Origin: a bacterium
GTDB lineage: Bacteria; B130-G9
Direction of reading: 5' to 3'
DNA length: 5,514 bases
NCBI GenBank assembly: GCA_021160245.1
Contig: JAGHCW010000072.1
Span: forward strand, 1 to 5,514
The translations under genes were made by a program, and so were the position numbers. Positions within the stretch are counted from its first letter, which is position 1. Every line of letters begins with the position of its first letter. This document shows positions 709 through 5,092 of this stretch, one piece after another. The notes beneath the pieces are model-generated. The model did no database searches and had not been told where the DNA came from. It saw only the letters and a program-made list of their open reading frames with translations.

Positions 709-738
709 TTGACAGGAGTGGGTCGGACGGTCTATCTT
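709..738 (+). promoter_or_regulatory. Sigma70-type promoter of the arsR-like gene
   Basis: A perfect -35 hexamer TTGACA lies at 709-714. An 18-base spacer separates it from a -10-like TATCTT at 733-738 (4 of 6 matches). Transcription would start close to 745, which is the ATG of the regulator, so the mRNA may be leaderless or nearly so. The -10 overlaps the palindrome at 737-752, as expected for an autorepressed promoter. The assignment rests on consensus matching only. Confidence 0.5.
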
Positions 739-752
739 CGACAGATGTCGAA
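737..752. promoter_or_regulatory. Palindromic operator candidate (TTCGAC-N4-GTCGAA)
   Basis: A perfect inverted repeat has 6-base arms TTCGAC (737-742) and GTCGAA (747-752) around AGAT. Allowing a two-base bulge on the left, the arms extend to CTA (732-734) and TAG (753-755). It covers the end of the -10 box and the ATG at 745. ArsR/SmtB dimers bind short imperfect palindromes overlapping their own promoter, so this is the natural operator. Binding is inferred, not shown. Confidence 0.55.
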
Positions 753-1116
753 TAGTCGAAAGAACGAGTTGAAGAGAATTGCCGACGTCCTAAAAGCGCT
801 GTCGAATCCCAGTCGCCTGCAGGTTCTATTGCGACTTGCCTCGCATTGTCCCTCCGAAGGCGCCTGTGATGGCGAGGTCTGCGCATGCGTCGGAGATATT
901 GGGCAGGACCTCGAGATTTCACCATCGACCGTCTCTCATCATCTAAAGGAGCTTAAGCACGCTGGGCTGATCCTGATGGAGAGGCATGGTCAGAGAGTTG
1001 AGTGTTCGATCGATTTCTCAACCGTGCAAAGCTTAATCGATTTTCTCAATGATAACCTTAGCCAAGATTGTTGTACCAATAAACGCTGCAACGGAAACGA
1101 ACCCAAGAAGGAATGA
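745..1116 (+). CDS. ArsR/SmtB-family metal(loid)-responsive repressor, Cys-rich
   Basis: This is a 123-residue winged helix-turn-helix repressor of normal family length. Residues 9-32 form the helical start with the typical A-D-V-L-K-A-L-S-N-P-S-R-L run. Cys46-Ala-Cys48-Val-Gly-Asp sits at the position of the CVCDL metal-binding loop. The recognition helix is SPSTVSHHLKELKHAGL (residues 59-75), followed by the wing. Eight cysteines are present (35, 41, 46, 48, 87, 109, 110, 115). The tail pair C109-C110 with C115 recalls the C95/C96/C102 As(III) site of Acidithiobacillus ferrooxidans ArsR. The ATG at 745 is chosen because family members start just ahead of the KRIADVLKAL helix; the in-frame TTG at 709 would place the start on the -35 box. 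No good ribosome site precedes either start, consistent with a leaderless message. The next gene begins one base after this stop, so they are co-transcribed. Family is certain; the inducer is inferred. Confidence 0.9.
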   Translation: MSNSRKNELKRIADVLKALSNPSRLQVLLRLASHCPSEGACDGEVCACVGDIGQDLEISPSTVSHHLKELKHAGLILMERHGQRVECSIDFSTVQSLIDFLNDNLSQDCCTNKRCNGNEPKKE

Positions 1117-1117
1117 C

Positions 1118-1867
1118 ATGACAGACAAAACGAAAGAACGAACTGAGAATGGCGAGGCGTGTTACGGATCGCATTCCGACGGCAGACCTCCGCGCAAGCC
1201 CTGGATTAAGACCGTGATATTGGCGGCGGTTCTGCTGGCGGCTGTTGCGCTGGCTGGGCACTTATTTTCTGATTGCTCCGCCAATGCGTCAACATGTCCC
1301 TTTTCAGCAGTCTGTGGCTCGTCAAAAGACTGTGTCTCTGCATCAGACTGTGCTTTTGCCCGCTGCTCTTGTGGCGCCTGTTCTGCCGCCAAGAGGCGCC
1401 CTTCGTCAACGGAGCAATCTCCCAAGAAGAGCGGCATCATCTGCCCACTCTTGGATTCTAAGACGAATGCTAAGGAGACAACCGCAGACAAAGCGGTCAT
1501 CTTCCTGCTGCTCAGCGGCGGTGATGTTGAGGCGTCAAGAAGGGCGTCGGACACGCTCGAGTCGGTAACGGCAAAGTTTGAGAAGGCTGACCTTCCCATT
1601 CTCACTTTGACTCTGGAAAAGGGCGAGAGAGGATTCGACCGGATGATCAAGCAGTTCTCCATCACTTCTCTACCGTGCATTGTAGCTTTTGGTCAGGGAT
1701 GCCAGTCTTCCGTTGTGAAGACGTCGGACATCGCTGAGGAGGCTCTTGGCAGCGCATTCAAAAGGGCTGCCAGCGATGATGCGTGCGGAACACCCAAGAC
1801 CGCTAAACGAAGTCTCAAATGCGGCGCATTTTGCCCAAGCAGTTCGCACGAGGCCAAGGGCAAATAG
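1118..1867 (+). CDS. Membrane-anchored Cys-rich protein with thioredoxin-like domain lacking CXXC
   Basis: This 249-residue protein has no family name I can give. Residues 1-29 are hydrophilic and basic (R23, R26, K27), and residues 30-50 form one transmembrane helix. By the positive-inside rule the rest is extracytoplasmic. Residues 53-88 hold eight cysteines at near-regular spacing (53, 60, 66, 72, 78, 83, 85, 88). Residues about 125-217 have a thioredoxin pattern: strand VIFLLL, helix, strand LPILTLTL, then ITSLPCIVAF with the likely cis-Pro at 186. Aligned without gaps to thioredoxin, the CGPC site is Val137-Glu-Ala-Ser140, so the normal dithiol is absent. Cysteines lie instead at 187 and 195, with three more near the C-terminus (223, 235, 239). 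No lipobox is seen at C53. The start is ATG 1118 with AAGAAGGA five bases upstream; an in-frame upstream ATG at 1049 lies inside the regulator gene and is rejected. Co-transcription with the ArsR gene suggests metal(loid) binding or thiol chemistry, which is inference. Confidence 0.85.
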   Translation: MTDKTKERTENGEACYGSHSDGRPPRKPWIKTVILAAVLLAAVALAGHLFSDCSANASTCPFSAVCGSSKDCVSASDCAFARCSCGACSAAKRRPSSTEQSPKKSGIICPLLDSKTNAKETTADKAVIFLLLSGGDVEASRRASDTLESVTAKFEKADLPILTLTLEKGERGFDRMIKQFSITSLPCIVAFGQGCQSSVVKTSDIAEEALGSAFKRAASDDACGTPKTAKRSLKCGAFCPSSSHEAKGK

Positions 1868-1883
1868 AAGTAATCATATACTT

Positions 1884-1926
1884 GGATTGGCGAGGCTCTC
1901 TGCAATTAGCATGCGCCTCGCAATCC
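1884..1926. terminator. Bulged stem-loop between convergent genes
   Basis: The left arm is GGATTG-(G)-CGAGGC (1884-1896) and the right arm is GCCTCG-CAATCC (1915-1926), giving 12 base pairs with one bulged G and an 18-base loop; TGC and GCA in the loop can pair again. A second small inverted repeat AAGTA/TACTT (1868-1872 with 1879-1883) abuts it. It starts 17 bases after the + strand stop at 1867 and ends 7 bases short of the - strand TAG at 1933-1935. It is well placed as a bidirectional terminator, but neither side has a U-tract, so intrinsic termination is not proven. Confidence 0.45.
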
Positions 1927-1932
1927 AGCGGT

Positions 1933-3306: not shown

Positions 3307-4182
3307 ATGACCGCTCAAAATGACTCTGATATTTCAACCGCCTTTGTTAGTGGCAAGGGAAGCCCTCTGTCGATTGGCGGCAGAAGTGAATTTGTAATAA
3401 TTGGTGAACGCATTAATCCAACCAACAAGAAGGGGCTAACCAAGTCCATTTTAGAGCGGGATTTCGATGTCGCGCTTCGACATGCTAGAAAGCAGATTGA
3501 CAGCGGCGCAGCCGTCATCGACGTGAATGTGGGCGCGGCAGGTGTTTCCGAAAAGGATATTCTGCCGGCACTAGTTGCGTGCTTGCAGGAGCATGTCGAT
3601 GTCCCTCTTTCACTTGATTCGGCGTCAGCTGAGGCGCTTGAAGCTGCGGCTTCGGTCTATGTTGGCAAGCCTCTTATCAATTCCACAACCGGAGAGCTTG
3701 GGCGGCTTCGACGGCTACTTGAGCTAACGAAGTCGTGTGACGGTGCTCTGATTGCTCTCTTGATGGACGAAAAGGGCATACCCGACGACGTTGACGGGCG
3801 CTTAAGGATTGCAGATAGGATACTGAACGAGGCCTCCAAAGTCGGGCTTTCGATGGCGAATATCGTGATTGATTGCGTCGTGATGAGCGTTGGGGCGCTA
3901 CCTATGTCTGGGCGCACAACTCTTCTCACTCTGGGGGCAGTCGTCGAGAAGTTCGGTGTCGCGACGGTTTTGGGCGTGAGTAACATATCACATGGGATGC
4001 CGAGTCGCGACGTTTTGAACCGGAGCATGCTCTCTATTGCGGTTTTCGAGGGCTTATCGTCTGCGATCATGGACCCACTGGACGAGGGCATGAAGGACGC
4101 AATCGCATCCTGTCGTCTATTGGGCGGGCGAGACGAGATGGCCATGGACTATGTGACGTATTGTCGGCGGACGAAGAGCTAG
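3307..4182 (+). CDS. Methyltetrahydrofolate:corrinoid methyltransferase-like protein (AcsE/MtgA type)
   Basis: This 291-residue cytoplasmic protein has the pterin-binding TIM-barrel fold shared by AcsE, MtgA, the MetH folate domain and dihydropteroate synthase. The family moves a methyl group between methyl-tetrahydrofolate and cob(I)alamin held by a corrinoid protein. Visible landmarks in order are FVIIGERINPTN (29-40), IDVNVG (71-76), LSLDS (101-105), INSTTGE (124-130), VIDCVV (187-192) and GVSNISHG (223-230). These match the AcsE strands carrying the pterin-binding Asp and Asn residues; N226 corresponds to the N199 region of the Moorella enzyme. About 28 N-terminal residues precede the barrel, so it is slightly longer than AcsE (about 262). 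GAGGT lies six bases upstream of the ATG. There is no fused corrinoid domain and no corrinoid protein gene in the window, so its partner is elsewhere. The radical SAM gene follows four bases later. Family is firm; acetyl-CoA pathway versus methylotrophic use is open. Confidence 0.85.
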   Translation: MTAQNDSDISTAFVSGKGSPLSIGGRSEFVIIGERINPTNKKGLTKSILERDFDVALRHARKQIDSGAAVIDVNVGAAGVSEKDILPALVACLQEHVDVPLSLDSASAEALEAAASVYVGKPLINSTTGELGRLRRLLELTKSCDGALIALLMDEKGIPDDVDGRLRIADRILNEASKVGLSMANIVIDCVVMSVGALPMSGRTTLLTLGAVVEKFGVATVLGVSNISHGMPSRDVLNRSMLSIAVFEGLSSAIMDPLDEGMKDAIASCRLLGGRDEMAMDYVTYCRRTKS

Positions 4183-4186
4183 CGCG

Positions 4187-5092
4187 ATGCCCAAGCCCAG
4201 TTATTTGGCGCTTGCCAAAAACGGTGAGCTCTCGCGGCGCGCCGATGCTCTCTTTGACCATCTGAAGGACTGCGACCTCTGCCCGAGGCTGTGTCGCGTT
4301 GACCGCACCGCTGGTGAGAGGGGCTTCTGCGGCGTGGGCGATAAGGTCATGGTAAGCAGTTTCGGTCCCCATCCGGGTGAGGAGCCGGAACTCGTTGGTC
4401 GCCACGGCTCGGGCACGATATTCTTCACCTCGTGCAACCTGCTGTGCGTCTTCTGCCAGAACTACGACATAAGCCATCTCCGGCGAGGAAAAGAGCAGAG
4501 CTGCGAGGCGCTCGCCGTCAGTATGATGCGGTTGCAGGGATTGGGCTGTCATAACATCAACCTCGTTACCCCGACGCATTTTGCGCCTCAGATAGTCCGG
4601 GCAATTGACATCGCTGCAAAGGCGGGGCTTGACCTCCCGATTGTCTATAACTGCGGTGGCTACGAGCGGGTCGAGATACTGAGAATGCTCGATGGGATAA
4701 TCGACATCTACATGCCGGATATAAAATTCTCAGACCATGCTGCCGCGGAGAAATACATGCACGCAGAGGACTATCCGGATGTGGTCAAGATGGCTCTTTC
4801 GGAGATGCACCGGCAGGTGGGGGACCTCAAGGTTGACGATCGAGGCATCGCGACGAGAGGACTGTTGATAAGACACCTCGTCATGCCGGGGGGGCTTGCG
4901 GGCTCAAGCGAGTTCGCCCGGTTCATCGCCGATGAGATATCAAAGAACACTTATGTCAACGTCATGGCGCAATATCGGCCAGAGTACCGAGCCCGCGACT
5001 ATCCGGAGCTCATGCGCCTCGATATACCGGAGCAATATCTTGCCGCCAAGCAGGCTTTTGAGGCATTTGGCGTTCGCTGGCAGCCTCGTTAG
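4187..5092 (+). CDS. Radical SAM protein, PflX-like (putative pyruvate formate-lyase activating enzyme family)
   Basis: This is a 301-residue radical SAM enzyme. The cluster motif C-X3-C-X2-C is C83, C87 and C90 (SCNLLCVFCQNYDIS), which would bind the [4Fe-4S] cluster that cleaves S-adenosylmethionine. A second Cys set at the N-terminus (C29, C32, C36, C48 in CDLCPRLC and GFCGVG) is typical of the PflX/COG1313 group and may hold another cluster or zinc. Further landmarks are NLVTPTHF and YNCGGYE, then IYMPDIKFSD and LIRHLVMPGG, all usual for this group. The length is normal and nothing is missing. The true substrate of PflX-like proteins is not established, so 'pyruvate formate-lyase activating' describes only the relationship; no glycyl radical enzyme is encoded here. 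The start is ATG 4187, four bases after the methyltransferase stop, with GAAGAG (4173-4178) as a modest ribosome site. The tight spacing implies one operon with the methyltransferase. Confidence 0.88.
   Translation: MPKPSYLALAKNGELSRRADALFDHLKDCDLCPRLCRVDRTAGERGFCGVGDKVMVSSFGPHPGEEPELVGRHGSGTIFFTSCNLLCVFCQNYDISHLRRGKEQSCEALAVSMMRLQGLGCHNINLVTPTHFAPQIVRAIDIAAKAGLDLPIVYNCGGYERVEILRMLDGIIDIYMPDIKFSDHAAAEKYMHAEDYPDVVKMALSEMHRQVGDLKVDDRGIATRGLLIRHLVMPGGLAGSSEFARFIADEISKNTYVNVMAQYRPEYRARDYPELMRLDIPEQYLAAKQAFEAFGVRWQPR

Follow-up and report, generated by a model that had tools for sequence, protein, structure and literature searches.

A cysteine-rich protein encoded behind arsR belongs to a CXXC-less family of ars-operon proteins and probably handles arsenic

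The window (the whole 5,514-nt stretch of DNA analysed here) encodes a membrane-anchored, cysteine-rich protein that is probably not a redox enzyme but an as yet undescribed protein of arsenic handling. It belongs to a small family, here called family X, whose C-terminal domain (domain X) is covered by no Pfam, NCBIfam or PDB family. Gene context is the strongest evidence on the role of the window protein, and two fusions of domain X to ArsD, in different phyla, are the best functional clue because ArsD serves ars operons as their arsenite metallochaperone (PMC2963123). We put at roughly 55% the reading that it is a non-catalytic thiol protein by which arsenite, or a comparable soft metal(loid), would be bound for export; the window copy would then be a paralog standing on its own, its cysteine sink enlarged.

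Translation of the gene confirmed several features given in a preliminary description of this DNA, namely eight cysteines over 36 residues (53-88) after the membrane helix, VEAS at residues 137-140, Pro186 followed by Cys187, and three cysteines near the C-terminus (Table 1). The protein has 15 cysteines in all (residues 15, 53, 60, 66, 72, 78, 83, 85, 88, 109, 187, 195, 223, 235 and 239), with Cys15 ahead of the membrane helix. The near-regular spacing of 5-7 residues described for the row holds for its first six cysteines but not for the last two intervals (spacings of 7, 6, 6, 6, 5, 2 and 3). The clustering of eight cysteines in 36 residues is modest beyond the protein's own cysteine content (permutation p = 0.010 over the whole protein and 0.023 over residues 53-249), and the overall content of 6% cysteine is the stronger anomaly. 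Arg23, Arg26 and Lys27 lie ahead of the helix, and these charges point to an extracytoplasmic location of the C-terminal part, which holds 14 of the 15 cysteines.

Table 1. Features of the window and of loci encoding relatives of the window protein
Feature	Position	Strand	Basis
IS4/IS701-like transposase, cut by contig start	3..677	+	DDE_Tnp_1, 23.9 bits
Sigma-70-like promoter TTGACA-18-TATCTT just 5' of arsR start	709..738	+	
arsR, metalloregulator	745..1116	+	NF033788, 68.6 bits, above cut-off
Ribosome binding site AAGAAGGA within arsR end	1105..1112	+	
Cysteine-rich membrane-anchored protein, 249 aa (family X)	1118..1867	+	translation of 1118-1864
Membrane helix, residues 29-51	1202..1270	+	hydrophobic segment
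Row of eight Cys, residues 53-88	1274..1381	+	
Beta-alpha-beta-alpha-beta-beta-alpha domain, residues 125-220	1490..1777	+	thioredoxin-like in best model
VEAS, residues 137-140, at expected CXXC place	1526..1537	+	
Pro186 (kept in 6/6 members) and Cys187 (window copy only)	1673..1678	+	
C-terminal Cys tail, Cys223/235/239	1784..1834	+	Cys tail kept in 6/6 members
Inverted repeat just 3' of stop codon, likely transcription end	1883..1927	+	
hgcA-hgcB-X-CcdA/ArsG-acr3-arsF cluster	L004:4119-8901 (G000:C238)	-	HgcA, HgcB, ACR3, ArsF above curated cut-offs
ArsD protein with unannotated C-terminal family X domain, membrane helix between	L035:2768-3805		
ArsD protein with unannotated C-terminal family X domain, no membrane helix between	L043:7728-8468		

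The ArsR-family repressor reported upstream was borne out by an NF033788 match above cut-off; its start was placed by alignment to the ArsR of a related genome, G002 (60% identity). The arsR stop codon ends at 1116 and the ATG of the cysteine-rich protein lies at 1118 behind AAGAAGGA, a gap of 1 bp, so that the two genes form a unit and are probably translationally coupled. The G002 arsR is preceded by a promoter arrangement similar to that at 709-738. In both genomes the -10 box lies ~6-10 bases before the ATG (window 709-745; L010 before 7811), an arrangement that would leave the mRNA with little or no leader. The palindrome TTCGACA-GA-TGTCGAA at 737-752 is not claimed as an operator; it is absent before the G002 arsR. 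No pump or CcdA gene adjoins the gene of the cysteine-rich protein. Further downstream, window positions 3307-5092 carry a methyltetrahydrofolate methyltransferase-like gene (PRK07535, just under cut-off) and, after it, a radical SAM gene of AmmeMemoRadiSam-like type; both are unrelated to the cysteine-rich protein.

The window protein had no sequence match in Pfam, NCBIfam or PDB. Whole-genome searches identified a full-length ortholog in the MAG G003, which was deposited under the name Candidatus Coatesbacteria, a paralog on contig C238 of the window's own genome and a further member in G002; family X is present in three of the four genomes of the phylum in the collection. Profile searches added members in two other phyla, in G375 (E 2e-21) and G399 (E 6e-24), bringing the family to six members in three phyla, a count that leaves out matches in G166 and G196. 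Samples of 384 and 387 further genomes from the same domain of life contained no other clear member, and no relatives were found in IMG/VR or plasmids. Among GTDB contigs the single-protein scan found no relative and the alignment scan found G003 only. Weak genome matches in G204, G203, G041 and G051 had no fitting open frame behind them and were set aside. The window domain is 54% identical to that of G003. A profile of the four ars-operon members retrieved the window protein by hmmsearch at E 6e-9, compared with 0.04 for the best of 1000 shuffled sequences, and hhalign of the window/G003 branch against these four gave a probability of 95%. At the sequence level, the homology of the window/G003 branch to the other four members is firm, and the window protein shares with them the CXXC-less domain, the kept proline and a C-terminal cysteine tail.

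Comparison of the six members revealed which features belong to the family and which to the window copy. CXXC occurs in none of the six, so the VEAS of the window protein is not the result of mutation in one copy, and on this point the preliminary description was right. Pro186, Gly194 and the C-terminal cysteine tail are kept in all six; the claim that the cis-Pro motif is retained thus stands in the alignment, as a statement about position and not geometry. The tail of the four ars-operon members has GCC or SCC and, after it, one or two more cysteines, whereas the window and G003 tails have three spaced single cysteines in place of this CC..C pattern. Of the eight-cysteine row, G003 keeps Cys66, Cys85 and Cys88 (3/8), in addition to Cys109, Cys195, Cys223, Cys235 and Cys239; the other four members have no linker cysteines, and Cys187 is unique to the window copy. 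Neither the row nor Cys187 is therefore a family trait. The ars-operon members with a membrane helix carry CGPxCxC ahead of it, where the window protein keeps one cysteine. The lack of CXXC and the cysteine tail thus define family X, and the cysteine row is, by sequence comparison, an addition of the window/G003 branch that is largest in the window copy.

AlphaFold2 was run on the window protein together with one ortholog. In the best model, residues 125-220 fold as strand-helix-strand-helix-strand-strand-helix with a pLDDT of ~75; the other four models have a mean pLDDT of 36-39. Structures similar to the best full-length model include thioredoxins, KaiB and PDI b' domains (E 1e-4 to 1e-3 by Foldseek); Z is 10-12, also for thioredoxins, and the rmsd mostly 2.3-3 over ~90 residues. 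A model of the isolated domain has the same order of elements at a pLDDT of 56, and its best matches, ATP synthase gamma subunits and aminoacyl-tRNA synthetase domains (Z 6-8), differ from those of the full-length model and were disregarded given this low confidence. Alignment of the family by hhalign with local thioredoxins, ArsF and ArsD was not significant, although known positives also failed with so few sequences. Domain X as a diverged copy of ArsD was likewise not retained, the two being colinear without significance in a comparison whose positive controls failed too. The gap-free alignment with thioredoxin given in the preliminary description thus has no significant sequence match behind it, and the thioredoxin-like domain rests on structure prediction, in which the best model fits well and a second, low-confidence model does not; in our judgement the predicted thioredoxin fold is likely, though not secure. 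With VEAS at the start of helix 1 and CXXC missing throughout the family, the protein does not present itself as a thioredoxin oxidoreductase.

Arsenic-resistance genes surround five of the six family members, although for the window copy this context consists of arsR alone. The paralog in the window genome lies in a cluster with the order hgcA-hgcB-X-CcdA/ArsG-acr3-arsF-arsF, in which HgcA (422.8 bits), HgcB (116.7) and ACR3 (371.3) all score above cut-off and the ArsG-like protein falls under the cut-off of its family. In G002 the order is arsR-arsM-X-CcdA/ArsG-acr3-arsF. X forms the C-terminal half of an ArsD-TM-X fusion in G375, encoded after arsA and an AhpD-like gene and before CcdA, radical SAM and acr3 genes. 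In G399, ArsD and X make up one chain of ~246 residues without a membrane helix, with acr3 next. The ArsD match in both fusions is confined to the stretch that precedes X. No ars gene is visible beside the G003 ortholog, which has a methyl-accepting chemotaxis gene upstream and the contig end 119 bases downstream. Altogether, a CcdA-like gene lies directly downstream of X in three of the six contexts, and an ACR3 pump is found in the clusters of four members. An arsR gene directly upstream, raised earlier as a possible constant, occurs only in the window, as G002 has arsR-arsM first and G003 a chemotaxis-receptor gene. The view that ArsR operons do not encode such a protein is off the mark, since relatives have their genes in ars operons and occur as ArsD fusions; the link to arsenic genes is real and stronger than could be seen from the window.

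Family X resembles several known systems without coinciding with any of them. ArsD (PF06953, NF033727), which has a thioredoxin fold (PMC3091736), is likewise a small ars-operon protein, binds As(III) by cysteine thiols and is twice fused to domain X. In contrast to ArsD, the window protein has no PF06953 or NF033727 match and no Cys12-Cys13-Cys18 site (CC-x4-C after the first strand), is membrane-anchored, and carries its cysteines in linker and tail. Genes for CcdA, thioredoxin and redox-active disulfide protein 2 occur as a set in ars operons (PMC2963123), and relatives adjoin a CcdA-like gene there, but the thioredoxins of that set carry CXXC (CIPC in the same phylum), which X lacks. ArsF genes and an ArsG-like CcdA are found in X clusters (NF040494, NF040495), and two genomes each have one ArsF copy that is itself CXXC-less; X nevertheless has no sequence match to ArsF (NF040494), and the ArsG-like matches are under the ArsG cut-off. 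CXXC-less thioredoxin-fold domains such as the PDI b' domain, KaiB and the SasA N-terminus rank high among the structural matches to the better model but are unrelated to X in function and sequence. Our literature search, in which subscription journals were thinly covered, yielded no account of a CXXC-less domain that is fused to ArsD or encoded behind hgcAB or arsM. What is known, then, are links between ars genes and hgcAB and the presence of CcdA and thioredoxin in ars operons; what would be new is X as an ars-operon thiol accessory protein. Although ars operons are well studied, domain X is missing from every family library searched, and its two ArsD fusions tie it to arsenite handling.

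These findings are consistent with a mechanism in which a small, probably thioredoxin-like domain without redox cysteines, equipped with a flexible cysteine tail and usually a membrane anchor, would use its tail thiols to capture arsenite, or another soft metal or metalloid of this kind, and would buffer it or hand it on near ACR3 efflux. The CcdA/ArsG-type membrane protein whose gene adjoins that of half of the members may keep these thiols in the reduced state. The G399 fusion, having no membrane helix, suggests that domain X is able to function next to ArsD in the cytosol as well. The window copy would be a second, stand-alone version in its genome, derepressed by its own ArsR, which the extra row of eight cysteines, presumably extracytoplasmic, would turn further towards a sink, and may show how such a protein can turn into one. 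As pump and CcdA are absent at the window, this copy would either serve as a sink under ArsR control or cooperate with partners whose genes lie on contig C238. The earlier proposal of a metal(loid) sink rather than an oxidoreductase thus holds in so far as CXXC is missing from all six members and a thiol-based metal(loid) role is the preferred interpretation, but the cysteine row is not family-wide and might form structural disulfides outside the cell. The G003 ortholog without a visible ars neighbour, the missing pump and CcdA at the window and the insecure fold all weigh against the arsenite-sink reading.

The same thiols could serve a redox partner of a CcdA/ArsG-type protein, in which the tail cysteines, not CXXC, would shuttle CcdA electrons to an extracytoplasmic arsenic compound or protein. 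The CcdA-like genes directly 3' of X and the known pairing of CcdA with thioredoxin in ars operons (PMC2963123) speak for such a role, as do ordinary CXXC thioredoxins found with CcdA and a permease elsewhere in genomes of the same phylum. However, an active-site CXXC is missing from every member, the G399 protein has neither a neighbouring CcdA nor a membrane helix, the spacing of the tail cysteines varies and ordinary thioredoxins are already present, and we regard this explanation as unlikely. Somewhat less likely again is a cell-envelope protein for another metal (Zn, Cu, Cd or Hg) that would be sensed by ArsR and trapped outside the membrane. ArsR/SmtB repressors do sense several metals, the window ArsR is under the cut-offs of all metal-specific NCBIfam models, and the own-genome paralog sits with hgcAB; yet the signs at other members are those of arsenic (arsM, ArsD fusions, arsA and acr3), and the G002 ArsR (60% identity) heads an arsM-acr3 operon.

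We consider it improbable that the window copy is a functionless paralog carried beside an insertion element, its cysteine row a product of drift. The transposase fragment directly upstream, the missing pump and CcdA and the unconserved row would fit this, but the gene has an open frame, a good ribosome binding site and a likely terminator, and the domain is 54% identical to that of G003, the two proteins sharing Cys66, 85, 88, 109, 195, 223, 235 and 239. The arsenite-binding reading is preferred. A wider version of it, which we hold to be doubtful, is that domain X, with its cysteine tail, is a new non-redox arsenite-handling module that extends ArsD in some bacteria and in others, in membrane-anchored form, links ArsM or HgcAB to CcdA and ACR3, as one thiol carrier for arsenite efflux and mercury methylation.

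The window genome carries hgcA and hgcB directly before the paralog of the window protein, and as both score above curated cut-offs the organism may be a mercury methylator; of the phylum's four genomes, only one yielded an HgcA. Linkage of arsR, acr3 and arsM with hgcAB is published (PMC7438021, PMC10349881), in passages that mention no X-like protein, and the own-genome paralog lies in such a cluster. Being encoded immediately behind hgcAB in one genome, X is a concrete candidate for what connects arsenic genes with mercury methylation, a link that is little understood. In the ars cluster of G375, a radical SAM/SPASM protein (L035:686-2053) is encoded between CcdA and acr3, with no arsenic-specific model among its best 25 matches. 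ArsF-family proteins without CXXC (L004:3045-3611 and L010:2155-2712) are encoded beside ArsF copies that keep it.
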